From positions 1-64,000 of the forward strand of contig JANQOW010000042.1 of assembly GCA_028285595.1 (NCBI GenBank): 64,000 nucleotides of DNA. Direction: 5' to 3'. The translations under genes and the position numbers were made by a program. The notes under the pieces were generated by a model. The model ran no database searches. It saw nothing but the letters and a program-made list of their open reading frames with translations, and was not told the DNA's origin. Numbering within the stretch: position 1 is the first letter of the stretch; each line of letters opens with the position of its first letter. Below are positions 4,646-20,829 of the stretch, one piece after another. This DNA is from Hyphomicrobiales bacterium. GTDB taxonomy: Bacteria > Pseudomonadota > Alphaproteobacteria > Rhizobiales > CAJQND01.

Positions 4646-4663
4646 TGTCAAGATAAATTGACA
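4646..4663. promoter_or_regulatory. PpsR/CrtJ-type site upstream of bchI
   Basis: TGTCAAGATAAATTGACA is a TGT-N12-ACA motif in the gap between the DUF3422 gene and bchI. Read on the minus strand it ends in TTGACA and is followed about 17-18 bases later by a weak -10-like TCATGC/CATGCT. Repressor binding would therefore cover the probable bchI promoter. Confidence 0.75.
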
Positions 4664-6058: not shown

Positions 6059-7453
6059 TTATTCCTCCTCCGCCAACCCGAACCTGCGAAGCTTCGTGTA
6101 GAGTGCTTGACGACTAAGTCCCAGAACTTTGGCGGCGAGGGCCCGATTGTTGCCGGTGAGCTTGAGAGCTGCTTCAATGCAACTGCGCTCGATAAGATCG
6201 GTAGAATCCTTGACGAGCTCCTTGAGCGGTACTTTCCCGATCAACTCGGTAAGGTGCTCGGTAGATTTGAGTTGATCGTGCCCGTTTCCGTTCACTGATG
6301 AGACCCGCAAAGACACATTGCGCATAACCACGCCCAGGCTTGCGGGCTTAGAATTTGGCATGTTCACAATGGAAAGCTCAACATCGGTCTTCAACCCGGC
6401 AGAACTGCGTGCGGTTGCAGGTACCATATACAAACGCCCATGCTGCCTCGCATTTGACAACATGACATCCAAGTTGACGTCAGGACCGTCGAAGAAGTCG
6501 CTTAAGGGTCGTCCATTCACACGTTCGGCCGAGCTGCTTTGCGTCAGCTCAACGAATGAATCATTCGACCAGATGATGCGATTATCATCGTCAATAAGAA
6601 CAACAGCTTCGCTGGCCAATCGCAGCAGCTTCACGAGGTTTGCTTCTTGATTTTCTTCGGGAGCGTCTGTCTCAAGCGGCTTTGCAGTCAGCAAAAATAG
6701 CGAAGAGCCACGCGACCGAAAAACATCGATCTTCAGCTCGATCGCCGCACCATCATCAGTCGAGTGAGCGCGCAAAGTTAGCGGCTCTCCAGAGCTTGCA
6801 ACGGTCGTCAAACTCTGCTCGATCAGAGGCTTGTCTTGCTTTTGAAACAAACGGGTCAGTTTGCGGCCGATCAATGCGTTCACGTCAGATTGAAAAAGCT
6901 CTGCGGCACAGGGGTTCAACTCCCGCACCTGACCAGACACGCCGTCAACAATCATGAAGGCTTCAGCAGCGGTTTGGAACACCATCCGATAGCGTGCTTC
7001 GGACTGTCTCTGTTCTTCGTACTTTTGTTCCATCGACTGCTGCGCAGACACCAGCCGGCTTTGCAGCGCCGCCATTGGCGACAAATCGCGGCCCATAAGG
7101 AGCACGTCCTGGCCATTGCCCGTCGAAACGGCTGTGTACTGAACTGGCACGGTTGAGCCTGCAACGCCCAGATGATTGATCTCGCTGGATCTTGGCGCTT
7201 GGCCACCACGAGCCGATTTAACCAGCTTTTTGATTTTGCCCTGGCACTCAATCGTGACCACATCATCTAAGGGCTGACCAAACCAACTCGCGACGTCTAG
7301 CCGGCTCCGGTCAATGTCGCTGGCAGCATCTCGAATGATGCCTTCGTGATCAACAACCAAAGCGACGTCGGACGCCGACGTGATGAATGATCCCACGGTC
7401 TGAGGGTCCACATCCGTCAGATGCGCGTCAGGTTGTGTAAATTGCGTTGCCAT
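6059..7453 (-). CDS. ppsR: PpsR/CrtJ photosynthesis gene repressor
   Basis: Transcriptional regulator of photosynthesis genes that binds TGT-N12-ACA sites, usually repressing under oxygen or light. The 464 residues include PAS-like domains (about 21-130, 155-265 and 277-385), a coiled-coil-like stretch near 131-155 (QSRLVSAQQSMEQKYEEQRQ), and a C-terminal Fis-type helix-turn-helix (NNRALAAKVLGLSRQALYTK). Cysteines are at about residues 70, 182 and 425. The last lies in ERSCIEAAL and matches the conserved helix-turn-helix cysteine. No cysteine is found near residue 250, where Rhodobacter proteins have their redox partner. A near-consensus PpsR site covers its own start region. It is divergent from the bacteriophytochrome operon. 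Confidence 0.93.
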   Translation of the reverse strand: MATQFTQPDAHLTDVDPQTVGSFITSASDVALVVDHEGIIRDAASDIDRSRLDVASWFGQPLDDVVTIECQGKIKKLVKSARGGQAPRSSEINHLGVAGSTVPVQYTAVSTGNGQDVLLMGRDLSPMAALQSRLVSAQQSMEQKYEEQRQSEARYRMVFQTAAEAFMIVDGVSGQVRELNPCAAELFQSDVNALIGRKLTRLFQKQDKPLIEQSLTTVASSGEPLTLRAHSTDDGAAIELKIDVFRSRGSSLFLLTAKPLETDAPEENQEANLVKLLRLASEAVVLIDDDNRIIWSNDSFVELTQSSSAERVNGRPLSDFFDGPDVNLDVMLSNARQHGRLYMVPATARSSAGLKTDVELSIVNMPNSKPASLGVVMRNVSLRVSSVNGNGHDQLKSTEHLTELIGKVPLKELVKDSTDLIERSCIEAALKLTGNNRALAAKVLGLSRQALYTKLRRFGLAEEE

Positions 7454-7456
7454 GGG

Positions 7457-7474
7457 TGTCCAATTGCGTTGACG
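7457..7474. promoter_or_regulatory. Near-consensus PpsR site just upstream of ppsR
   Basis: TGTCCAATTGCGTTGACG matches TGT-N12-ACA except for the final base. It closely resembles the consensus site upstream of puc (TGTCCAATTTGATTGACA). It begins 4 bp from the ppsR start codon, so it could mediate weak autoregulation. The assignment rests on similarity only. Confidence 0.45.
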
Positions 7475-7688
7475 TACTAAGCACTATAACATGCTTTACT
7501 ATTGTGCAACGGCACCGAGCAAAAAAGTGTAGCTCACAAACAGGTTATCTCCGGGAGGTACTCAACGTTAATTCGGTAAATGACTCTTTCGCTCGGCGCA
7601 GCCGGAATAGGTGAAAATGTGATTGGCGTTTGCATTGGGTTGGTGAAGGATGCACGCTTCATGGGACCCGTGGGTTCGGAGAGCGGAA

Positions 7689-8345
7689 ATGGTGGAGCGC
7701 AAAAAATCAGCTAGAAGAAATGACAAAAGTCGCTTCGTGCTGCGGTCAGAAACCGCAATGATTCACGATCAGCTTCATCAAGTTGCGTGTTTCCAGGCAC
7801 TTTTTGAGGGTACCCTGACGCTCGATCAGTATGTGGCACTCATTGAGCGTATGCACGGGTTTTATGCAGATCTAGACTTACAGGTAGAAACGGCTTGCAG
7901 CCGCTACGGTCTTCCGAGTGAAGACTTTGACTATGCGCCTCGAGCGGAGCTCTTCGCACGAGATCTTGAAGCCCTCGGCCTGACACGCAAGGATATCAAC
8001 TCAGGCGCCAAGTACCATCACCCGGGGCCAATCGAATCTGCTGAAGGTCTGAGCGGAGTGCTATATGTCATTGAGGGCTCAGTTCTGGGAGGCGCTGTGA
8101 TCGCGAAAGCCCTGCAAGGTCTGCCAGCACCGGAAACGGTCCGGCGACAAAACTATTGGACCTGGTGCCAAACCCATGGCGCCCGTAGATGGGCTATGAC
8201 CCTGCGCATGTTAGATGATCTCGATCGGCGGGGAGTTGATCGAGAGGCTATGGTGGATTCAGCGAAATCGACCTTCGCGGCAATGCATGATTGGTTAAGT
8301 CCTCTGGGTTCTTCGCAGGTTGCCGCCCAGAGGCACGTCCAGTGA
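7689..8345 (+). CDS. bphO: Biliverdin-producing heme oxygenase of the bacteriophytochrome operon
   Basis: Heme oxygenase that opens heme to biliverdin IX-alpha, the chromophore for the phytochrome encoded next. The family start RSETAMIHDQL places the probable proximal His at residue 26, and the distal-helix segment is GVLYVIEGSVLGGAVIA. The ATG at 7689 was chosen because a GGAGAG-like ribosome binding site lies just upstream and it gives 218 residues; a start at 7650 is possible but lacks such a site. The stop overlaps the GTG start of bphP by 4 bp, so the two are translationally coupled. It is divergent from ppsR. Confidence 0.88.
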   Translation: MVERKKSARRNDKSRFVLRSETAMIHDQLHQVACFQALFEGTLTLDQYVALIERMHGFYADLDLQVETACSRYGLPSEDFDYAPRAELFARDLEALGLTRKDINSGAKYHHPGPIESAEGLSGVLYVIEGSVLGGAVIAKALQGLPAPETVRRQNYWTWCQTHGARRWAMTLRMLDDLDRRGVDREAMVDSAKSTFAAMHDWLSPLGSSQVAAQRHVQ

Positions 8346-10627
8346 ATAAATCTAGCGTTGATCTCACCGCTTGCGACAATGAACCGATTCATCTGATCGG
8401 AGCCATACAGCCACACGGCACGCTTTTGGTGGTGAACAAGGATGATTTCACGATCGAGTTCGCTGCGGCGAACACTATGGAGCATTTTTCTCGCTCGCCA
8501 GACGAGCTCTTGGGGCAGAACCTCGCTGAATTATTGGGAGCTTCTAACTGTGAGGAGCTTGCCCGGCATCCTTTGAGCCCGGGTACTCCGGACATTCTGC
8601 AGCCTTGGTTCCCGAAGTCCAATGAGTGTTTTCAACCGCAGCACCGATTGGAATGTCTGCCTCGCTTGCAAGGTGATCTCATCATCTTGGAGTTCATGTG
8701 GGACGAAGAGGCTTCAACCACGGTTTGGGAGCAAGAGGAACTTAGGCAGCGCATCATCTCTGAACTGATTAGACCAGATGCACTTGAGCAGCTTGCTCAG
8801 GTCAGTGCTGAAATCATTCGTAATGTCACCGGTTTTGATCGCGTGATGATATACAGATTTGCTGAAGATAAGCATGGTGAGGTCATCGCTGAAAGCACGG
8901 TGCGAGACGACAGTTTCTTTGGGCTCCATTATCCAGCGTCTGACATACCCGATCCGGCACGGCGTCACTTTGTACTCAATGTGATGCGGTCGATCCCTGA
9001 TATTAACGCCAAGCCCGTTCCCATCCTTGCCCGCGATGGTAAAGGGACCGATGCCCTATCCGACAACCCCTTAGATCTCACGTATTCGAAGTTGCGCGCA
9101 GTGGCTCCGGTTCACATCGAATATCTGAACAACATGGGGGTTGAAGCGAGCATGTCCATTTCGTTGATCACCAACGATCAGCTTTGGGGCTTGGTGGCGT
9201 GTCATCACTACAGTACGCGTTTGATTTCTTCCAACCGCCTCAGATTTGCTGAGCTTCTTGGGAGCACGATATCGGCGCTTTTGCAAAGCATCGAGAACAC
9301 TGATCAATTGCGGCAGAGTATCGATGCTGAAAAGATTGCTTTTGGGATCGAGCAAAAAGCGCGCGGTGGAACTAATTTGCGCACGGCGCTTCTCGAGAAG
9401 TCCGATAGCGTCATGCAGATTATTGATGCTCAAGGTCTGTTGTTGAAGCTGGGTGATAAGACTGATCAGATTGGATTGGTCGGGCCAGATCCCCTCGAAC
9501 TTGGCATGTTGCGAGACAATGCCGCCGATGGTGTCGCTACCACCTCACACCTCCTTCACCTTATGACGCATGATGATTTGGAAGTTCCAGCCGCTGGCGT
9601 CGCCTATCTTGAGCTCTCCGAAGATGGCGAAGACTATCTGCTGTTGTTCCGCGAGCATTATGTGCACACGATCAAGTGGGCTGGAAAGCCCGATAAGATC
9701 GAGCAGCATGATGACGGCGGCCAAGTTCGCCTTTCGCCACGCGGGTCATTTGCCCTATGGAGCGAAGAGCGTAAGGGAACCAGCAAGCCTTTCAGCGAGC
9801 TTGATCATGAAGCCTTGAGGATCATTCGCAGAGCCTTATTCGCCTTAAACAGCTTGGACCGGGAACGGGCCGCATTAAAGGCCCAGCGTCAAGCGGAAGC
9901 TGAAGAAGCGCGTCTGCGTCATGCACTGCTCGACGCTTCTCGGAGCCATGCAATGAGTGAGGTGGCAAAGGCGATTGCTCATGAGCTCAACCAGCCGCTC
10001 TCCGCGGTGGCGAACTATGTAAATGCCTGCCGGCAAGAGTTGCGCAATTCAGAAGCGAGCGTCTCTGAACAAGCTTCTGAGCTGATGGATGACGCAGTAG
10101 CAGAATCGTCACGAGCGGGAGATCTTGTGAGGCGATTGCGCGACTTTATCGCAAGAGGCGATTTGATCGCCGATAACATTGACCTCAACGCTACGGTTAA
10201 ACGTGGTCTGGATCTGTGCATCCTAACCAACGAGGACCAAGATCTCGAAGTTGTTCTCAATCTGCAAAATGATCTGAGGAAAGTATGGGCGGACCCTGTT
10301 CAAGTTGCCCAGGTTATCTTAAATCTCGCTAAGAACAGCATTGCCGCCATGCAAGGCATGCCGGATAAGACGTTGATCCTGTCAACGACCGCGCGTGATG
10401 GAGAGGTTGAAGTGTCCGTACGAGACACAGGCCATGGCTTGCCTGAGGATGTAAAAGAAACGATGTTTGAGCCGTTCCACAGTTCGACCACCAGCGGCAT
10501 GGGTATTGGCCTTTCATTGTGCAGATCCATTGTGGAAGCCCATGAGGGACGCATTTGGGCGCGCGGATTGGAAGATGGAACGGAAGTCATCTTCTCACTG
10601 CCTTATCGCGAGACGAACGATGTCTAA
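8342..10627 (+). CDS. bphP: Bacteriophytochrome histidine kinase
   Basis: Red/far-red photoreceptor kinase, 761 residues from a GTG overlapping the heme oxygenase stop. The N-terminal PAS domain carries the biliverdin-binding Cys at residue 11 (LTACDNEPIHLIGAIQPHG). The GAF domain has YPASDIPDPARRHF and the paired His in ACHHYSTRL, and the PHY tongue motif is SPRGSFALWSE. The output module is a FixL-like HisKA (AIAHELNQPLSAVANYVNA) followed by HATPase boxes (ILNLAKNSIAAM, DTGHGLPEDV, GMGIGLSLCRSIVEAHEG). No receiver is fused; the partner is the response regulator that overlaps its 3' end. The motifs indicate a photoactive, kinase-competent protein. Confidence 0.96.
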   Translation: MNKSSVDLTACDNEPIHLIGAIQPHGTLLVVNKDDFTIEFAAANTMEHFSRSPDELLGQNLAELLGASNCEELARHPLSPGTPDILQPWFPKSNECFQPQHRLECLPRLQGDLIILEFMWDEEASTTVWEQEELRQRIISELIRPDALEQLAQVSAEIIRNVTGFDRVMIYRFAEDKHGEVIAESTVRDDSFFGLHYPASDIPDPARRHFVLNVMRSIPDINAKPVPILARDGKGTDALSDNPLDLTYSKLRAVAPVHIEYLNNMGVEASMSISLITNDQLWGLVACHHYSTRLISSNRLRFAELLGSTISALLQSIENTDQLRQSIDAEKIAFGIEQKARGGTNLRTALLEKSDSVMQIIDAQGLLLKLGDKTDQIGLVGPDPLELGMLRDNAADGVATTSHLLHLMTHDDLEVPAAGVAYLELSEDGEDYLLLFREHYVHTIKWAGKPDKIEQHDDGGQVRLSPRGSFALWSEERKGTSKPFSELDHEALRIIRRALFALNSLDRERAALKAQRQAEAEEARLRHALLDASRSHAMSEVAKAIAHELNQPLSAVANYVNACRQELRNSEASVSEQASELMDDAVAESSRAGDLVRRLRDFIARGDLIADNIDLNATVKRGLDLCILTNEDQDLEVVLNLQNDLRKVWADPVQVAQVILNLAKNSIAAMQGMPDKTLILSTTARDGEVEVSVRDTGHGLPEDVKETMFEPFHSSTTSGMGIGLSLCRSIVEAHEGRIWARGLEDGTEVIFSLPYRETNDV

Positions 10628-11228
10628 CGTCGATGGCAGTCCTCTTACGGTGTACGTGGTTGACGACGACACAGCGGTTTTGAAATCGCTTTGTGCGTTG
10701 CTTCTGGCGCATGGCTATCAAGCAATTGCATGCCAGTCGGCCGAGGAGTTCTTGAGCGTCCACGACGCCGACGCGAAAGCTTGCATGCTCTTGGATCTGC
10801 GCATGCCAGGCATGAGCGGATTGGAATTGCAGGCTCATCTCAACGACCTGGGTGCCAAGATTCCCATAATCGTTGTGACAGGGCATGGTGATGTACCTGT
10901 GGCCGTAAGGGCTATGAAAGCCGGCGCGATCGACTTCATCGAGAAGCCAACCCCAGAGGATCAACTGCTAACGTCTCTTGCTATGGCAAACGAGATTCTT
11001 AATGGCCGCATTACGCGAGCCGTGCCCGCCGAGCTTGTTTCCGTTCGGCTCGGCAAACTCACTGAGCGCGAGCGCGAAGTGCTTGATCTGTTGGTGATTG
11101 GTAAGATCAACAAAGAAATCGCCGAGCATCTGGGCGTGAGCCAACGTACCGTAGAGATACACCGGGCACGCGTTCGTGAGAAAATGGGTGCACGAGGGAT
11201 TGCCGATTTGATCAGGATGCTGAGCTAG
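10620..11228 (+). CDS. FixJ-type response regulator, partner of the bacteriophytochrome
   Basis: Two-domain transcriptional regulator of 202 residues. The receiver has the acidic pair VVDDD, phospho-acceptor Asp in LLDLRMPGMSG, Thr in VVTGHGD and Lys in FIEKP. The output domain is a LuxR/FixJ helix-turn-helix (LTEREREVLDLL, NKEIAEHLGVSQRTVEIHR). The ATG overlaps the bphP stop by 8 bp, a strong sign that they form one light-signalling unit. Targets are not shown by sequence; the LH2 operon 3 kb downstream is a candidate because bacteriophytochromes control puc genes in some Rhodopseudomonas strains. Confidence 0.93.
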   Translation: MSNVDGSPLTVYVVDDDTAVLKSLCALLLAHGYQAIACQSAEEFLSVHDADAKACMLLDLRMPGMSGLELQAHLNDLGAKIPIIVVTGHGDVPVAVRAMKAGAIDFIEKPTPEDQLLTSLAMANEILNGRITRAVPAELVSVRLGKLTEREREVLDLLVIGKINKEIAEHLGVSQRTVEIHRARVREKMGARGIADLIRMLS

Positions 11229-12360: not shown

Positions 12361-13779
12361 GTGAGAACCACCAAAACATATCTCGGCCCAAAACTTCGAC
12401 AGCTCCGTAAAGATGCAGGTCAAACCCAAGCGGAAATGGCCCGGGCTCTGGGCCTCAGTGTGTCCTACGTCAATCTTCTTGAAAACAATCAGCGCAGTTT
12501 GTCCGTTCAAGTTTTGATGCGCGTGTCGGAGGTCTATGGGGTCGAGTGGCGCGACTTGGTCAAGGACACCACTCCAACGAAGCTGGCGGATCTGAGAAAC
12601 GCGTTTCAAGACACAGTCTTCAACGAGAACCGGCCGGACTTGGCCGAACTGCGCGCAAGTCTGGACCACTGCCCCGCCGTTGCTCAAAGCTTGCTCGATC
12701 TGCACAAGGCCTATCGTGGGTTGATGGAACGCACGCTCACGGCCTTTGGAAACGTAAAGTCAGACCAACACCAGCTTGTGGCAACGAGTCCCGAAACCGC
12801 GGTCCACGATTTCTTTCGCCGCGAGCACAATCACTTTCCTGTATTGGAGGAGGCTGCAGAAGATTTCTTCGGTGAGGACGAGGTCGAGCCGGATGAGCTG
12901 TACCATTATCTCAAGTCGCGTCTCCAGACGGGCTTGGACATTTCGGTGAAAACAGTAAACGCAACCGCCTTGCCGAACGCCTTGCGCGTTTATGACCGTG
13001 CCGAGAAACAGTTGCTGCTTGCCGAAACACTTGATTTCCCAAACCGCGTCTTTCAGTTAACCCATATGATCGGCTTGCTTGAGTTTGGTGCTCTCATCGA
13101 CGGTCTGGTCGAGGACGCTCAAATAGCAGAACCGCGCCTGCGCTCGCGTTGCCGTGTGGAACTTGCCAACTATTTTGCGGCGGCATTGCTTATGCCGTAC
13201 GGCGCTTTCTTAGATGAAGCCCAAGCGTGCCACTATGACCTTGATCATTTGGCAGTGCGTTTTCGCGTCTCCTTTGAGCAAGTCTGCCACCGCGTCACAA
13301 CACTGCAACGAGATGGTGCGCGGGGTGTGCCGTTCTTTTTCCTTCGCATAGACCGGGCCGGCAACGTCACTAAGCGGTTTAACTCCACCAGCTTTCATCT
13401 GGCAGACTATGGTGGATCGTGCCCGAAGTGGGACCTTCACATGAGCTTCCGAACGCCTAACCGGATCTTGCCTCAGTTTGTGGAGATGCCCGATGGCTCA
13501 CGCTATTTCACCATCAACAGGACGGTAGATCGACCGAATTCGGACTACCATGCTCAAGACAATTGCTTAGCGATAACACTCGGCTGTTCGATTGAGCATG
13601 CGGGCGAACTCATCTATGCCCAACCGTTTCAGCTCGGCTCTGAATCAATCTTTACGCCTATCGGCATCAATTGCAGGCTGTGCCCGCGGCAAGCATGCAC
13701 ACAGCGCGCCCAGGAGCCCCTTCATTTGGATTGGCCTATTGACGAAGACAGAAAGGGCCGAACCCGGTTTGAAGGCTAG
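12361..13779 (+). CDS. ScfR-type XRE transcriptional regulator
   Basis: A 472-residue regulator of the short-chain fatty acyl-CoA responsive family (relatives: RamB, PccR, MccR). An N-terminal XRE helix-turn-helix spans residues 8-62 (RQLRKDAGQTQAEMARALGL, SYVNLLENNQR). An IrrE-like central domain follows, with RCRVELANYFAAALLMPYG, and a DUF2083-like C-terminus contains the Cys cluster CRLCPRQAC. Known members sense acyl-CoA intermediates and control propionyl-CoA, methylcitrate or glyoxylate-type genes. None of those targets is adjacent. The start is a GTG. Its place between the phytochrome and puc genes may be incidental. Confidence 0.85.
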   Translation: MRTTKTYLGPKLRQLRKDAGQTQAEMARALGLSVSYVNLLENNQRSLSVQVLMRVSEVYGVEWRDLVKDTTPTKLADLRNAFQDTVFNENRPDLAELRASLDHCPAVAQSLLDLHKAYRGLMERTLTAFGNVKSDQHQLVATSPETAVHDFFRREHNHFPVLEEAAEDFFGEDEVEPDELYHYLKSRLQTGLDISVKTVNATALPNALRVYDRAEKQLLLAETLDFPNRVFQLTHMIGLLEFGALIDGLVEDAQIAEPRLRSRCRVELANYFAAALLMPYGAFLDEAQACHYDLDHLAVRFRVSFEQVCHRVTTLQRDGARGVPFFFLRIDRAGNVTKRFNSTSFHLADYGGSCPKWDLHMSFRTPNRILPQFVEMPDGSRYFTINRTVDRPNSDYHAQDNCLAITLGCSIEHAGELIYAQPFQLGSESIFTPIGINCRLCPRQACTQRAQEPLHLDWPIDEDRKGRTRFEG

Positions 13780-14235: not shown

Positions 14236-14253
14236 TGTCCAATTTGATTGACA
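14236..14253. promoter_or_regulatory. PpsR/CrtJ-type site upstream of pucB
   Basis: TGTCCAATTTGATTGACA is a TGT-N12-ACA motif 106 bp before pucB and about 20 bp upstream of a sigma70-like promoter. It suggests aerobic repression of LH2 by PpsR. Confidence 0.72.
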
Positions 14254-14358: not shown

Positions 14359-14538
14359 ATGGCCCACGAAACACAAACCGCCGATCTGGACGACCCTGAT
14401 CGGATCTGGCCCACCGGTCTTACCATCAGAGAATCCGAGGAGATCCACAAGCACATCATTGATGGCTCGCGTGTGTTCTTTTTCATCGCGCTCATCGCGC
14501 ACATCCTGGCGTACTTGTATACGCCCTGGTCCTTCTGA
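14359..14538 (+). CDS. pucB: LH2 light-harvesting beta polypeptide
   Basis: Single-helix antenna protein of 59 residues that binds bacteriochlorophyll in the peripheral LH2 ring of the photosynthetic membrane. The core GLTIRESEEIHKHIIDGSRV, then the membrane helix with ALIAHILAY and C-terminal TPWSF, aligns well with LH2 beta chains. The His of AHILAY is the B850 ligand, the His in EEIHKH is near the carotenoid/B800 pocket, and the Arg in DGSRVF is the residue that hydrogen-bonds B800. It has a polar N-terminal extension of about 19 residues. It is followed 13 bp later by pucA. Confidence 0.96.
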   Translation: MAHETQTADLDDPDRIWPTGLTIRESEEIHKHIIDGSRVFFFIALIAHILAYLYTPWSF

Positions 14539-14551
14539 GGGGAGATAAGTA

Positions 14552-14698
14552 ATGAACCAAGGTAGAATCTGGTGCATAGTGAATCCGACAGTTGGCTTGC
14601 CGCTGTTTCTCGGCAGCGTTGCCATCATCTCATTGATCGTTCACTACTCAATTTTAAGCAGCACAACTTGGATGGCCGCATTTTTCCAAGGTGGCTAG
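14552..14698 (+). CDS. pucA: LH2 light-harvesting alpha polypeptide
   Basis: Alpha chain of LH2, 48 residues, starting [17 protein letters not shown] as in the Rhodopseudomonas acidophila (Rhodoblastus) B800-850 protein. The B850-ligand His falls at residue 31 (SLIVHYSIL) and Trp at 40 (STTW), so numbering is collinear with that protein. The C-terminal pair that hydrogen-bonds the B850 C3-acetyl groups, Tyr44-Trp45 in B800-850 complexes, is Phe44-Phe45 here (MAAFFQGG). B800-820 type chains are Phe-Leu there, so a blue-shifted complex is predicted. A GGGGAG ribosome binding site precedes the ATG. Confidence 0.96.
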
Positions 14699-14814: not shown

Positions 14815-15507
14815 ATGACGTTAAACGTCCGTATCTATGACACGGAGGACAACGCAAAGGCCGCCGATGCGGCGCTCGCCAAAGCCGGGTTTACCGAACG
14901 ATCCGTTTTCCTTCCCAGCAAATCCAAAGGTAAGGAGCGGGCTACGGTCCAAACGGCTATCGAGAAAGGCCAGTTGCCGGCGAGGAACGTGCTAATCTGC
15001 ACACAGACTCTGGAAAAAGGGCGTGCTCTGGTTTCCGTGGAAGCACCTTTTGGGAGCGGGCAAGCCGCGCTCAACATCATGGACGGCATCAAAGGCGTAG
15101 ATGGGGATTTACTTAGCCGTTATGTGCCGAGTGATCCTTCGCCATTCTCTGATAGTCTGGGTTGGAGCACCCTATCGAACTCCGAGCCATCGTCTGGTTT
15201 GCTTCGGCACGACTGGGCGTTCTCCAGGCTCTTTGGCATGGGTTTGCTCAGCGACAAAGCGGCACCATTCTCCTCTATGTTTGGCATGAAGGTGCTGAGT
15301 GCTGCCAAGAAAAATTGGAATTCCAGTTTCGGAATGCCAATGCTGAGCAACAAGGCGGCTCCCCTCTCATCCATGTTTGGAATGACAACCGTTCTCAAGT
15401 CGAAGAGAAACTGGGAGTGGAGTTGGGGCTTGCCACTGTTGTCGAAAAATCCTGCGCCCTTCTCGAGCCTGCTTGGCCTGAAGACGCTGTCTAAGCCTGA
15501 CCGTTAG
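14815..15507 (+). CDS. Unrecognised puc-operon protein with 16-residue C-terminal repeats
   Basis: A 230-residue protein between pucA and pucC that I cannot assign to a named family. Residues 1-95 look like a small alpha/beta domain of the general stress/DUF1269-like type (VRIYDTEDNAKAADAALAKA), which is a weak resemblance. From about residue 106 it is built of repeats. Gly recurs at 141, 157, 173, 189, 205 and 221, an exact 16-residue period, in the pattern [FWL]SSx[FLW]G[ML]xxLS. Two 32-residue double repeats are clear (146-177 and 178-209), starting SDKAAPFSSMFGM and SNKAAPLSSMFGM; a displaced copy has Gly116. The repeats look amphipathic and aromatic-rich, with no obvious long transmembrane helix. 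A GGAGGG-like ribosome binding site precedes the ATG. Context suggests a role in LH2 or membrane organisation. Confidence 0.8.
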   Translation: MTLNVRIYDTEDNAKAADAALAKAGFTERSVFLPSKSKGKERATVQTAIEKGQLPARNVLICTQTLEKGRALVSVEAPFGSGQAALNIMDGIKGVDGDLLSRYVPSDPSPFSDSLGWSTLSNSEPSSGLLRHDWAFSRLFGMGLLSDKAAPFSSMFGMKVLSAAKKNWNSSFGMPMLSNKAAPLSSMFGMTTVLKSKRNWEWSWGLPLLSKNPAPFSSLLGLKTLSKPDR

Positions 15508-15578
15508 GTTGCCTTGGAGCGCGTGGCTGCAGACATGTGATTCAAAATGACTCTGGTCATCGCCCCGGAGGGCGGGAC

Positions 15579-17039
15579 ATGGGTAGATATAGAGAACGTT
15601 TGCTGAGCGTATGGGCCTCGTTAGGCCCTCGGTATATGCCGTTTGCGGACGTTGTCACGCCTGACCTCCCCTTGCATAAGCTTGCGCGTCTTTCGCTCTT
15701 CCAGGTATCGGTTGGCATGACCATGGTTCTCCTTGTGGGAACTCTTAACCGAGTCATGATCGTCGAACTTGAGGTTCCTGCCGCCATCGTGGGCGTTATG
15801 ATTGCGCTCCCCTTGTTGATCGCGCCCTTCCGCACAGTGATCGGTTACAAGTCTGATACGCATAGGTGCGAGTTGGGCTGGCGGCGCGTGCCGTTCATTT
15901 GGAAGGGCACGCTCCTTCAATTTGGCGGCTTTGCTATCATGCCGTTTGCCCTCCTTGTGTTGGCGGGGAAGGGTCAGGCAGATGCGGTGCCAGCTTGGGT
16001 TGGCCAATCGTCAGCCGCGCTCGCATTTTTGTTGGTGGGAGCCGGAGCACATGTTGTTCAAACCACCGGATTGGCGCTCGCCACCGATCTAACGCCGTCC
16101 AAGTCCCATCCCAAGGTGGTTGGCTTTATGTATGTCATGCTGCTTGTCGGCATGTTTGCCAGCGCATTGATATTCGGTGCTGTGTTGGCCGATTTCACGC
16201 CTGGCCGCTTGGTTCAAGTCATCCAAGGGGCCGCGCTTGCCTCTCTGGTCTTGAACAGTGTGGCCATCTGGAAACAAGAGGCGCGGCGTCCACCCCGCGG
16301 TGCGCCCAGGCCAGAGGCAGATCCGTCGTTCCGTGAGTCTTGGGATCGTTTTTGCCAAGGTGAGCACGCCATCAGGCGGTTGGTGATTGTGGGACTGGGC
16401 ACAATGGCTTTCGGAATGGCAGACGTTCTCCTTGAGCCCTATGGCGGGCAAATCCTGAATTGGTCGGTGGCTGATACCACGAAGCTGACGGCTCTGCTTG
16501 CGATTGGCGGGCTGTTGGGCTTTGTCTTTGCATCCCATGTTCTCAAGCCTGGAAGCGATCCTTACCGCCTAACGCAGAATGGTGCGCTGATTGGACTACC
16601 AGCATTCGCGCTGGTAATTGCTGCGGCACCATTGGACTTGAGTGCACCGTTCTTGGTTGGAAACTTTCTGATCGGCTTCGGCGCCGCGGTGTTCGGTCAT
16701 GCGACGCTAACAGCTACGATGAGCCAGGCGCCAAAAGAACAAGCCGGTCTTGCCCTTGGCGCTTGGGGTGCCGTTCAAGCAACAGCGGCGGGCGTGGCGT
16801 TGGCCTTAAGTGGTGCAATTCGCGACATCGTTGGGATATTCATGGCCGGAACGGAGAGCGTGTTTGGGCTGGCCGGTCCGGCGTTGGGATACATCTCCGT
16901 TTATGCGCTTGAGATTGCGCTCTTGCTGATCACGGTGGCGGCCACAATTCCTCTTGTAGGCCGCATCACCAAACATCATCGCACGAATGACAGCGGCGTT
17001 GCTGAGGATGTAACGGCAGCCCGGCCTTCTCAGAGTTAA
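15579..17039 (+). CDS. pucC: PucC, BCD-family major facilitator needed for LH2 assembly
   Basis: Polytopic membrane protein of the bacteriochlorophyll delivery/LhaA-PucC family (major facilitator fold), required for LH2 formation and thought to help deliver pigment or assemble the complex. The 486 residues have about 12 hydrophobic helices. Recognisable segments are HKLARLSLFQVSVGM, GTLNRVMIVELEVPA, GYKSDTHRCELGWRRVPFIW and TGLALATDLTPSKSHPKVVG. The ATG at 15579 follows GGAGGG by about 7 bases and is preferred to an upstream GTG at 15537. It lies 71 bp after the repeat-protein gene and 15 bp before the deformylase gene, so the three are likely one transcript with pucBA. Confidence 0.94.
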   Translation: MGRYRERLLSVWASLGPRYMPFADVVTPDLPLHKLARLSLFQVSVGMTMVLLVGTLNRVMIVELEVPAAIVGVMIALPLLIAPFRTVIGYKSDTHRCELGWRRVPFIWKGTLLQFGGFAIMPFALLVLAGKGQADAVPAWVGQSSAALAFLLVGAGAHVVQTTGLALATDLTPSKSHPKVVGFMYVMLLVGMFASALIFGAVLADFTPGRLVQVIQGAALASLVLNSVAIWKQEARRPPRGAPRPEADPSFRESWDRFCQGEHAIRRLVIVGLGTMAFGMADVLLEPYGGQILNWSVADTTKLTALLAIGGLLGFVFASHVLKPGSDPYRLTQNGALIGLPAFALVIAAAPLDLSAPFLVGNFLIGFGAAVFGHATLTATMSQAPKEQAGLALGAWGAVQATAAGVALALSGAIRDIVGIFMAGTESVFGLAGPALGYISVYALEIALLLITVAATIPLVGRITKHHRTNDSGVAEDVTAARPSQS

Positions 17040-17054
17040 ACATAGGGACCGGCT

Positions 17055-17567
17055 ATGGCGATCTTAGGCATTCTCGAATATCCCGACCCACAGCTCCGCC
17101 TCTCCGCAAATCCGGTCACAGAGTTTGATGTAAGCATGACCCGGCTGGTCGATGATATGATTGAGACGCTTCATGCGTCCAAAGCCATTGGTCTATCTGC
17201 CACCCAGGTGAATGATCAGCGACAGATTTTGGTCATGGACCTATCTGAAAACGCAGAAGCCCCAGAGGTCTATATTAATCCTGAGATCATCAAGAAGGCG
17301 GCTTGGGGGATCGTGGAAGAGAGTTGCCTCTCCGTGCCCGATATCGTTGGCAATGTGTTCAGAGCCACCAAGCTGCAGGTGCGCGCGCAAGATCAGGCAG
17401 GCAACCTTTTTGAGCGAGAGCTTTCGGGGATGCATGCAGTTTGTCTGCAACACGAGATGGATCATCTCGCGGGAAAACTGTTCATCGACAAACTGTCCAT
17501 ATTCCGCAGATTGAGCATTCGCGCCCGCGCCCACAAGAAAGCGCGCGAAAAGAAGGCGGCCGCATAA
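17055..17567 (+). CDS. def: Peptide deformylase encoded in the puc operon
   Basis: Metal-dependent enzyme that removes the formyl group from N-terminal Met of new proteins; 170 residues, typical length. The zinc/iron-binding HExDH motif is intact (LQHEMDHLAGKLF) and the Cys ligand is in EESCLSVP. Motif 1 reads AIGLSATQ and motif 2 ESCLS, where housekeeping enzymes usually have GIGLAAxQ and EGCLS, so this looks like a divergent paralogue. The basic C-terminus (RARAHKKAREKK) may bind ribosome or membrane. It starts 15 bp after pucC. No fmt gene is adjacent, as would be expected for a housekeeping def. A dedicated role in processing antenna N-termini is possible but unproven. Confidence 0.9.
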   Translation: MAILGILEYPDPQLRLSANPVTEFDVSMTRLVDDMIETLHASKAIGLSATQVNDQRQILVMDLSENAEAPEVYINPEIIKKAAWGIVEESCLSVPDIVGNVFRATKLQVRAQDQAGNLFERELSGMHAVCLQHEMDHLAGKLFIDKLSIFRRLSIRARAHKKAREKKAAA

Positions 17568-18059: not shown

Positions 18060-19079
18060 TCAGAAGATCGCATGGTCTCCTCGATCAACGCTCCTGTTCT
18101 CGCGCAGTGCTTGAGCATAAAAATCGAATAACGTCTCGGTGCCCGTTGAAGGCGTCGCATCAGCGTCGTATTGGCCCGTCTCCGGGTTAAGCAGCAACAT
18201 TGATTCTGTTGCGTAATAGCGGCCTATGCGGGCAAGCTCAGATTTACTTGAAAGGCAAGGCGCGATCCTGCTGAGCACGTTGAGTGAAGCAACCGCAGCG
18301 TCAATGAATGCCAGAGGCACATGCCGTATCCGGGCAGGGCGTTTCAGGAGTGAGAACAGATACTCACCTTGCTCTTGCGGTGTGAGGGCATTGCCAGGAC
18401 CGCCGACCGGCAAGACGCGGTTGTATCGATCACGGCGCTCCAGGCAATCAACTAGATAGGAAGCTAGGTCTTTATCGCTGATGGGCTTGCAAGCTGTTTG
18501 ACGTCCATCACCAAAAACAAGAAACGGCTTGCCCTGTCTTACCCGGTCCAGTTGACCAGATAGTGACTTAAAGTAAGCCGTGGGCCGTACGATCGAATAT
18601 GTAATTCCAGAACCAATCAGTGCGTCCTCAAAAGCAAGCTTTGCATACTGAAAGGCCAATCGGGGTTTTTGGACGCAGATGGCGGAGAGAAGAACCATAT
18701 GTGGGACTTGGTGTTCCAGTGCAATGGTGAGTACGTTCTTATGCGCTTGATAGTCGATCGCCCAGGCGTCATCCGGAGCTCCAGTCCGAGAGGCCATGCA
18801 AGAGATGATGGCGTCAAATTGCTCACCACAAAATCCGTCAAGGCGAACAGAGTCCAGATCAGAAACGTCAACGCAGCGGTGATACGATCTGGGATGATGC
18901 ACGCAGGTTGAGTTCTCAGTTTCATGCGCTCCAACCCATGATCCGGGCCGCAAGAAGCAAACAACATTGTGTCCCCGTTCGATCAGAGCTTGTGTGGTTG
19001 CGAGGCCTATGGTGCCTGTCGCGCCAAGCACCAAAATCCTCTTCCGAGCGGAAGGCTGTCTTTGATTCCCCCTTTTCAT
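18060..19079 (-). CDS. bciA: BciA, NADPH-dependent 8-vinyl reductase
   Basis: Reduces the C8 vinyl group of divinyl (proto)chlorophyllide in bacteriochlorophyll synthesis. The 339 residues form an extended-SDR/NmrA-like fold: NADPH-binding LVLGATGTIGLATTQALIER at the N-terminus, then the BciA/DVR signature YSIVRPTAYFKSLSGQ and GDGRQTACKPISDKDLA. It is divergent from bchE across 127 bp containing PpsR and FNR-like sites, so both directions may share control. It lies upstream of the cytochrome c gene on the same strand. This is the BciA type, not the ferredoxin-dependent BciB. Confidence 0.92.
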   Translation of the reverse strand: MKRGNQRQPSARKRILVLGATGTIGLATTQALIERGHNVVCFLRPGSWVGAHETENSTCVHHPRSYHRCVDVSDLDSVRLDGFCGEQFDAIISCMASRTGAPDDAWAIDYQAHKNVLTIALEHQVPHMVLLSAICVQKPRLAFQYAKLAFEDALIGSGITYSIVRPTAYFKSLSGQLDRVRQGKPFLVFGDGRQTACKPISDKDLASYLVDCLERRDRYNRVLPVGGPGNALTPQEQGEYLFSLLKRPARIRHVPLAFIDAAVASLNVLSRIAPCLSSKSELARIGRYYATESMLLLNPETGQYDADATPSTGTETLFDFYAQALRENRSVDRGDHAIF

Positions 19080-19140
19080 GTGATGCCGGGTAACAGCGAC
19101 CCATACATGTATCTGCGCATTATCAGCTCAGTCGCAGTCG

Positions 19141-19154
19141 TTGATTTATGTCAA
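19141..19154. promoter_or_regulatory. FNR-like (FnrL) box upstream of bchE
   Basis: TTGATTTATGTCAA fits TTGAT-N4-(A/G)TCAA, the FnrL pattern of purple bacteria. Its centre (19147.5) lies about 41 bases upstream of a start that would follow a -10-like TAAATT (19176-19181), a class II activator position. It overlaps the first PpsR site by 6 bp. Confidence 0.6.
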
Positions 19155-19191
19155 TAAACATTGACATTATATGTGTAAATTTTAAGTTACA
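19149..19191. promoter_or_regulatory. Tandem PpsR/CrtJ sites at bchE
   Basis: Two TGT-N12-ACA motifs lie at 19149-19166 (TGTCAATAAACATTGACA) and 19174-19191 (TGTAAATTTTAAGTTACA), separated by 7 bp. This close spacing resembles cooperative CrtJ site pairs. The downstream site would cover the predicted -10 and start point, just before the bchE ribosome binding site AGGAGG (19196-19201). Confidence 0.78.
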
Positions 19192-19206
19192 CAATAGGAG
19201 GTGATG

Positions 19207-20829
19207 ATGCGCATAGCTTTGGTCCATCCGAACTATCACTCTGGCGGTGCTGAGATTGCCGGCAGTTGGCCACCTGCTTGGGTTGCCTATCTTGCGGGGC
19301 ACCTAAAAGATGCAGGCTTCTCCGATATTCACTTCATCGATGCGATGACCAACGATATTGCAGACGAGGATTTGCGCACTCGCTTAAAAGAGTTGCAGCC
19401 GGACGTGGTGGGCTGCACAGCCATTACGCCATCAATCTATGTTGCTGAGCAAGTTTTGAAGCTCGCCAAAGAAGCCTGTCCGAAAGCGGTTCGCGTCCTT
19501 GGCGGCATCCATGCAACATTTATGTACAAGCAGGTGCTGTCGGAAGCGCCCTGGATTGATGTGATCGTCAGGGGTGAAGGCGAGGAGATCTTCAGAGAGC
19601 TGATCAGGTGCATCGATGAGGGCAGGTGGCCTCAGGATCGGCGCAAGATTAAAGGTCTGGCCTTTGCGGAAGGTGAACAGTTTGTTGCCACCCAGGCCGC
19701 CTCGACCGTGAAAGAGCTCGACGCCATAAACCCGGATTGGTCGCTCCTGGAGTGGTCGAAATACATCTATGTGCCCTTAGGTGTGCGGGTCGCTATTCCC
19801 AACATGGCTCGCGGATGCCCGTTCACCTGCTCGTTTTGTTCCCAATGGAAATTCTGGCGCGATTACCGGGTGCGCGATCCCAAAAAGGTCGCCGATGAGA
19901 TCGAGACCTTGGTTGATAAGCACGACATCGGCTTCTTTATCCTGGCGGACGAAGAGCCCACCATCAACCGGAAAAAGTTCATCGCCTTTTGCCAGGAGTT
20001 GATCGACCGCGGTTTGAATCACAAAGTGAAGTGGGGGATCAATACTCGGGTTACCGATATCTATAGAGATCGGAAGTTGCTCTCGTTCTACCGCGAAGCC
20101 GGACTTGTTCACGTGTCGCTTGGCACAGAGGCGGCCGCACAACTAAAACTCGACCGCTTCAATAAGGAAACCAAGGTGGAGGAGAACAAAGAGGCGATCC
20201 GCCTGCTGCGGGAGGCCGATATTTTCGTGGAGGCCCAGTTTATTGTTGGCCTGGACAACGAAACGCCGGAGACCTTGGAAGAAACGTTCCAAATGGCTTG
20301 GGACTGGCAACCAGATCTTGCCAACTGGGCGATGTACACGCCTTGGCCCTTCACGTCCCTGTTTGCAGAAATCAAGGACAAGGTCGAAATCTTCGACTTC
20401 TCCAAGTACAACTTCGTGACGCCGATCATGGCACCGGAGGCGATGGATCGTGCCACCCTGCTTGACGGCGTGATGAAGAATTATCGACGCTTCTATTCGC
20501 GTAAAGCCCTGTTCCACTATCCTTGGCGCGGAACCGGCTTTCGCAGGCGCTATCTGTTAGGCTGTCTAAAAGCCTTCTTGAAAGCAGGTTTTCAGCGCAA
20601 GTTCTACGACCTTGGCAAAGCAAACTATTGGGGGCCGCAATCGAAGAAGGGCGTCAATTTCAATTTTGATCGCACCCGCACAATTGCGCCTGCCCAGATG
20701 GATGATTGGGAGGCAGCAGCCGATCGGGCCGCCAAAGCCCGTGCATTGAGAGAGGGTGCCGCTGTAAAGGCGTGTGGAGGAGGTGATCTCCAGATGGCTG
20801 AAGAAGCTGCCCCGGCCCCAAGTCCATGA
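19207..20829 (+). CDS. bchE: BchE, anaerobic Mg-protoporphyrin monomethyl ester cyclase
   Basis: Oxygen-independent enzyme that forms ring E of bacteriochlorophyll with water-derived oxygen, using cobalamin and radical SAM chemistry. The N-terminal B12-binding-like region starts [20 protein letters not shown]. The radical SAM cluster motif CPFTCSFC (CX3CX2C) is near residue 203, in the block [20 protein letters not shown]. The ATG at 19207 is 5 bases after AGGAGG, giving 540 residues; GTG 19201 and ATG 19204 are in frame but too close. It starts the bchE-bchJ-hemN operon. The oxygen-dependent cyclase AcsF is absent from this window. Confidence 0.97.

Follow-up and report, generated by a model that had tools for sequence, protein, structure and literature searches.

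A Phe44-Phe45 LH2 alpha chain and a gamma-family protein encoded in the puc operon of a Hyphomicrobiales bacterium

Background

The position of the B850 band of LH2 has been linked to how many hydrogen bonds reach the C3-acetyl groups: two bonds correspond to about 850 nm, one to about 825 nm and none to about 800 nm (Qian et al. 2022, PMC9618040). The PDB sequences 1kzu and 1nkz carry Tyr44-Trp45 in the alpha chain, and that of the Rhodoblastus acidophilus 7050 LH3 (1ijd) reads Trp40-Tyr41 and Phe44-Leu45. The latter complex, with a band at 820-824 nm, retains one hydrogen bond, donated by alpha-Tyr41 (PMC9618040, Table 1). There is no B850 hydrogen bond in the PucD-LH2 of Rps. palustris, which peaks at 803 nm (PMC9618040) and whose PDB sequence has Val41, Phe44 and Met45. 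A Rba. sphaeroides mutant without both donors absorbs at 826 nm, as cited in PMC9618040, and in P. molischianum a Trp of the beta chain serves as donor (PMC9618040). PDB entry 9dwz, labelled B-800/820, has Phe41, Phe44 and Gln45. The LH2 bands of Pseudohaliea rubra lie at 804 and 821 nm (PMC3679898), and the peripheral LH of Bradyrhizobium BTAi1 is given in Table 2 of PMC12654162 with about 800 nm only and no 820 band. Roseobacter-type antennas with F44-L45 have one peak at about 800-806 nm.

In Rps. palustris, LH2 also contains a gamma subunit, an extended ribbon of six repeats that runs round six of the nine alpha/beta pairs and whose repeat serines bind BChl; a published BLASTp search placed gamma in Rhodopseudomonas only (PMC9618040). 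The ligand of B800 is an N-carboxy-methionine at alpha-Met1 (PMC8775250; PMC9618040). Here we analyse a puc operon within a 64,000-nucleotide stretch of a Hyphomicrobiales genome (contig JANQOW010000042.1, positions 1 to 64,000), hereafter the window.

Results and discussion

The puc operon and its surroundings

The features discussed below are as follows:

14236..14253, + strand: PpsR/CrtJ-type box TGTCCAATTTGATTGACA, 5' of pucB (TGT-N12-ACA scan, consensus match)
14359..14538, + strand: pucB, 59-aa beta chain of LH2, containing IDGSRVF and the His that ligates B850 (PF00556, 35 bits; top PDB matches are LH2 beta chains)
14552..14698, + strand: pucA, LH2 alpha chain, 48 aa, with Met41 and Phe44-Phe45 (translation, PF00556, alignment)
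14681..14686, + strand: codons TTT TTC of Phe44-Phe45, where Tyr44-Trp45 is expected (read in the sequence, aligned to 1kzu/1ijd)
14815..15507, + strand: LH2 gamma-family protein, 230 aa, with a PII/ferredoxin-like N-domain (about 1-92) and seven repeats (homologues, profiles, periodicity, AF2)
15537..17039, + strand: pucC, LH2 assembly/BChl-delivery MFS protein (PF03209 PUCC, E 1e-144)
17055..17567, + strand: second, puc-linked peptide deformylase, 170 aa, with GLSATQ, EESCLS and QHEMDH (PF01327, over cut-off)

The genes form a run on the same strand, pucB-pucA-gamma-like-pucC-def. The pucA product scores 43 bits against the Pfam family PF00556 (LHC) and gives a gap-free alignment with structurally solved LH2 alpha chains, which places His31, Trp40, Phe44 and Phe45; the collinearity with Rhodoblastus acidophilus LH2 (His31, Trp40) proposed in a preliminary description was thereby borne out. 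It possesses all the features of an LH2 alpha chain, i.e. the LHC domain, the MNxG N-terminus (intact, MNQG), the B850 ligand His31, Trp40 and the collinearity, and its gene is paired with that of an LH2 beta, lies by pucC and is apart from puf. Taken alone, pucA is one more member of the known LH2 alpha kind. LH1 is encoded by a single gene pair in the genome (99.36% complete), on contig C16, and LH2 by the pair at this locus alone; pucA is the alpha chain of the sole peripheral antenna of this alphaproteobacterium. The search for further pucBA copies with Tyr-Trp, suggested along with the preliminary description, found none in the genome that might provide a B850 band. Neither pucBA nor the ORF at 14815-15507 matched the plasmid collection.

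TGT-N12-ACA palindromes occur 15 times in the window, as against 8.5 by chance. A regulatory role of the TGTCCAATTTGATTGACA box is suggested by its likeness to the known PpsR target sequence. Palindromes of the PpsR type lie close to photosynthesis genes at 813-830, 4646-4663, 14236-14253 and 19149-19166. The stretch that separates pucA from the gamma-like ORF folds with an ordinary energy (z -1.08), and the idea of an attenuating hairpin there was rejected.

Upstream of the operon, positions 6059-11228 harbour a ppsR-like regulator (minus strand), a heme-oxygenase-like ORF, a bacteriophytochrome histidine kinase and a response regulator; the pucBA operon of BTAi1 is reportedly under the control of a bacteriophytochrome. 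Closer to pucB on its 5' side (12361-13779), there is a ScfR-type regulator with HTH, IrrE-like and ScfRs domains, an uncommon partner for LH2 genes. At 18060-20829, two PpsR-type boxes separate a divinyl-reductase-like gene (minus strand) from its neighbour bchE.

Predicted absorption of the antenna

The codons TTT TTC and the 1kzu/1nkz sequences confirmed the reading that Phe44-Phe45 replaces Tyr44-Trp45, and the 1ijd sequence likewise agrees with the earlier remark that LH3 carries Phe-Leu at these positions. The determinants of B800 are kept as claimed, the alpha MNQG being intact and the beta IDGSRVF present. Because Phe44-Phe45 replace both donors, and no Tyr41 stands in for them, a blue shift of the inner ring is expected, and we consider it very likely that the inner BChl ring absorbs to the blue of 850 nm. 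Lacking aromatic C3-acetyl donors at 44-45 as well as Tyr41, the B850 ring would shift to the blue while B800 would stay. As for LH3 (B800-820), pucA shares with it the absence of donors at 44/45; the one C3-acetyl hydrogen bond left in strain 7050, from Tyr41, has no counterpart, position 41 being Met.

An ordinary B850 band could arise nevertheless if other residues donated the bonds, namely alpha Ser27 or, in the beta chain, the Trp at His+9 or the tyrosines at +4/+6. A beta Trp does act as donor in P. molischianum, and the C-terminal region of the window's pucB carries AYLYTPW. However, the beta chains of PucD-LH2 and LH3, both blue-shifted complexes, align with this one through its C-terminal PW, and none of the published complexes compared absorbs at 850 nm with Phe44 or without both donors. 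We therefore regard an ordinary B850 as quite improbable.

A blue shift thus being the preferred reading, two outcomes can be distinguished. In the first, resembling LH4, B850 would collapse into B800 to give a single peak at about 800-806 nm. The window has Met41 and no Tyr41, in parallel with PucD-LH2 (Val41/Phe44/Met45, 803 nm), the Roseobacter F44-L45 antennas peak at about 806 nm, and the closest cultured match around the chromophores, BTAi1 (Trp40-Met41-Phe44-Phe45, beta AYIYSPW), is listed with about 800 nm only. P. rubra, on the other hand, absorbs at 821 nm in spite of Met41-Phe44-Phe45, and the donor-less Rba. sphaeroides mutant is at 826 nm. A single peak therefore falls just short of being probable in our judgement. 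In the second outcome, that of the preliminary description, two resolved bands would be present as in LH3 (B800-820/830). The 804 and 821 nm bands of P. rubra, the 826 nm of the mutant, and 9dwz with Phe41, Phe44 and Gln45 under its B-800/820 label all agree with it, but the LH3 of strain 7050 retains the Tyr41 bond where the window has Met41, and for BTAi1, which shares the Phe-Phe pair, the published table gives no 820 band. Two resolved bands are accordingly a real possibility, to which we give somewhat less than an even chance.

Both P. rubra and BTAi1 have Met41-Phe44-Phe45 and a single LH2 pair per genome. Phe-Phe thus goes with 821 nm in the former and with about 800 nm in the latter. 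The wavelength is not set by the dyad alone, and as these two single-LH2 strains lie some 20 nm apart, other residues must contribute. The window LH2 is thus predicted to absorb somewhere within 800-826 nm (LH3- or LH4-like) with B800 kept. The 820-830 nm given previously for the Phe-Phe pair accordingly stands as regards the blue shift, both donors being gone from a single LH2 alpha; the value itself is not secure, as Met41 replaces Tyr41. The Phe-Phe pair thereby lets the hydrogen-bond rule for antenna colour be tested on natural variants.

The Phe-Phe dyad in related antennas

We compared 81 alpha chains, i.e. that of the window and 80 relatives. In this sample, which is biased (loci were picked by likeness to the window alpha, with MAAFFQGG among the search patterns), positions 44-45 were Phe-Phe in 35 chains, Tyr-Trp in 21, Phe-Trp in nine and other pairs in 16. 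No donor at either position was found in 50 of the 81 chains, none of the 50 having Tyr41. Phe44-Phe45 is spread over many lineages; since it recurs in 35 of 81 chains across these, the pair is neither chance nor error. On a pucC tree obtained from a short search, the label donor/no-donor changes at least nine times over well-supported branches, from which it can be inferred that the trait flips easily.

Two Halieaceae loci illustrate such variation. P. rubra (L023, Phe-Phe) and an uncultured relative (L071, Tyr-Trp) have near-alike pucC, beta and gamma-like sequences and differ in the alpha dyad, which we interpret as a natural colour switch among close relatives. In another pair of loci (L006 and L012), the alpha and beta chains on a MAG contig labelled 'Anaerolineae' are identical to those of an alphaproteobacterial MAG. 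This contig is likely mis-binned, and MAG phylum labels call for care.

A gamma-family protein between pucA and pucC

The ORF at 14815-15507, between pucA and pucC, matched no family in Pfam or NCBIfam. The tail of its product is composed of seven units, mostly of 16 residues, the last five being spaced exactly 16 aa apart; its autocorrelation at lag 32 or 16 was equalled in none of 5000 shuffles. Across the family, neighbouring anchors are spaced exactly 16 apart in 65 cases, far more often than at any other distance. In the AF2 model, the N-domain (residues 1-92) has pLDDT mostly 94-98, and the tail, with pLDDT 51-72, has little secondary structure. Structural matches of the N-domain are PII-like (E 0.1 with Foldseek; Z up to 8.0 with VIA, whose top rows are subunit D of alternative complex III). 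Such scores are typical of common arrangements, and a function deduced from these matches was set aside.

Of 80 related LH2 loci, 73 yielded a homologue in tblastn, located between pucA and pucC, 3' of pucC or 5' of pucB. The hosts include the isolates BTAi1, STM3809, P. rubra, Salinarimonas rosea and Aestuariivirga litoralis, as well as MAGs labelled Gemmatimonadota and Myxococcota, labels which may be wrong. Among 385 alphaproteobacterial genomes examined, a member is present in 11 of the 12 that bear an LH2 alpha, and the 373 without LH2 alpha contained none, the matches being at most weak and partial and nearly all to the N-domain. The sole LH2 genome without a member (G384) has a divergent alpha chain and no homologue by its puc genes.

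The likeness of the repeats to Rhodopseudomonas gamma had been noticed prior to the PDB profile search. When a profile of the whole family was run against 177,635 PDB sequences, gamma ranked first with its repeats in register (E 0.079); a repeat-only profile against the PDB did not recover it. The comparison of family and gamma profiles gave E 4e-6 and probability 87 with a shared repeat register and a common spacing of 16 residues. Shuffled gamma scored as high in 0 of 2316 controls, and column-permuted gamma in 18 of 1788.

The decisive comparison was one of genomes. When 248 genomes from the family to which BTAi1 belongs were searched, 19 proved to hold gamma, and in those examined the gene order is pucB-pucA-pucC-[220-aa ORF]-gamma. 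The 220-aa ORF encodes the family N-domain, which a profile built without that ORF picked out of 812 ORFs with E values from 1e-20 to 1e-14. It also contains several gamma-type units YKSYSGTPLLLDSSGP (YSGTPLL repeats) and a final canonical unit NNPTPLSSWLGLPVLSK; between profiles of the family and of the 220-aa proteins, E was 9.5e-33 over 210 columns. One locus (L132, G014:C1:440000-456000) has two pucBA-pucC-[220-aa]-gamma modules in tandem, one with alpha Tyr44-Met45.

Because a homologue located between pucC and gamma bears both the family N-domain and gamma-type repeats, gamma belongs to the widespread family; its homology to the family of the ORF at 14815-15507 is almost certain. We conclude that gamma is a family member without the N-domain. 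Although seen by cryo-EM in a single species and reported from Rhodopseudomonas only, it seems to represent just one branch of a family found alongside most LH2 operons of this type, in several phyla. The window protein possesses repeats of about 16 residues with a G-x-[PK]-L-L core and is homologous to Rps. palustris gamma, both through the 220-aa homologue and by the direct profile comparison. It does not, however, possess a Mg-ligand Ser in each repeat: Phe, Leu or Trp occupy the aligned position in the window, and in the canonical repeats it is taken by Phe or Leu, with Ser common at the second and third residues ahead of it.

Role of the gamma-family protein

By analogy with gamma, the repeat tail would most likely lie as an extended ribbon on the cytoplasmic side, outside the LH2 ring, with about one repeat per alpha/beta pair, and might possibly carry extra BChl. 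That the product of the ORF at 14815-15507 is a structural subunit of LH2 seems to us somewhat more probable than its opposite, and it may then wrap the ring; binding of BChl by its repeats is doubtful, albeit conceivable. Alternatively, the protein might be an assembly or regulatory factor of LH2 that is not stoichiometric, the Rhodopseudomonas gamma being a derived truncated copy turned subunit. The additional PII-like N-domain (absent from gamma), the missing Mg-ligand Ser in canonical repeats and Rhodoblastus structures without such a chain speak for a factor of this kind, but the repeat period and register match gamma, the co-occurrence with LH2 is near-perfect and the full-length Rhodopseudomonas homologue has gamma-type repeats, so that we hold it to be a minority possibility, if a serious one.

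A Rhodoblastus MAG (L049) encodes a family member, and to our knowledge no gamma chain has been seen in crystal structures of Rhodoblastus LH2. Either purification removes the protein, or in Rhodoblastus it does not form part of the complex. If the members are true subunits, many LH2 complexes, harsh-detergent preparations included, may have lost a component. Taken as a whole, a blue-shifted LH2 together with a gamma-like subunit encoded in the puc operon is the likely reading of this locus.

A puc-linked peptide deformylase

A further def gene is present in the genome, on contig C115. Deformylase genes lie closely 3' of pucC at 46 of the 73 loci where this region is visible. With respect to the deformylase motifs (GxGxAAxQ, EGCLS, QHExDH), the window copy has its catalytic residues intact and two motif residues altered; puc-linked copies mostly read EESCLS, most others EEGCLS or EGCLS. 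In a quick tree, the puc-linked enzymes group together, the label changing twice where shuffled labels gave a mean of 13. The row L174, from another contig of G007, was labelled 'other', but with its puc-type motif it probably represents a puc copy.

Since alpha-Met1 is N-carboxylated, a deformylated amine is required by chemistry. The puc-linked deformylase may thus be a dedicated maturation enzyme that frees alpha-Met1 for N-carboxylation and B800 ligation. BTAi1 and a Rhodoblastus MAG have one deformylase each, and therefore a dedicated enzyme cannot be a general need. Among the papers listed by a search limited to open-licence literature, none named both peptide deformylase and LH2. A puc-specific deformylase would give a handle on the unexplained N-carboxy-methionine of B800. 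The broader generalisation, that purple-bacterial LH2 operons encode a dedicated ring-wrapping gamma-family subunit, serving either to brace the ring or to add pigments of the B800 type, and that those of many lineages also encode a dedicated alpha-Met1 deformylase, is in our opinion unlikely to hold in full. An operon combining the widespread gamma family with a puc-specific deformylase makes two open questions testable.

Comparison with known systems

The P. rubra LH3 (B804-821) shares with the window alpha Met41, Phe44-Phe45, the single LH2 pair and, at its locus, a gamma-family ORF and a puc-linked def. P. rubra is, however, a gammaproteobacterium, its alpha chain is 74% identical and has Tyr40 instead of Trp40, and its beta reads AAVLTPW. 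BTAi1 (about 800 nm) has alpha Trp40, Met41 and Phe44-Phe45, the beta tyrosines and 79% alpha identity, together with a gamma-family ORF 3' of pucC, a bacteriophytochrome nearby and one LH2 pair. It differs in the long C-terminal tail of alpha, the gene order pucBA-pucC-gamma-like and the absence of a puc-linked deformylase. The window is nearer to BTAi1 than to P. rubra in Trp40 and in the beta motif (AYLYTPW, AYIYSPW in BTAi1).

As for the structurally characterised complexes, Rhodoblastus acidophilus 7050 LH3 (1IJD, B800-820) likewise has Phe44 and has lost both canonical donors, but carries Leu45 and keeps one hydrogen bond through Tyr41. Rps. palustris PucD-LH2 (7ZE3, 803 nm) also lacks donors at 44/45 and 41, with Met45 and Val41 in their place, and belongs to a multigene puc family. 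Rps. palustris gamma (7ZCU chain S) resembles the window protein in its GxPL[LI] repeats of about 16 residues, its puc-locus gene and its profile similarity, and differs from it in having no N-domain, in the Mg-ligand Ser of each repeat and in its reported restriction to Rhodopseudomonas. Finally, the housekeeping deformylase (PF01327) has the same catalytic Gln, Cys and HExxH but reads EEGCLS and GLAAPQ, whereas puc-linked copies mostly have EESCLS and GLSAPQ and form a tree group of their own.
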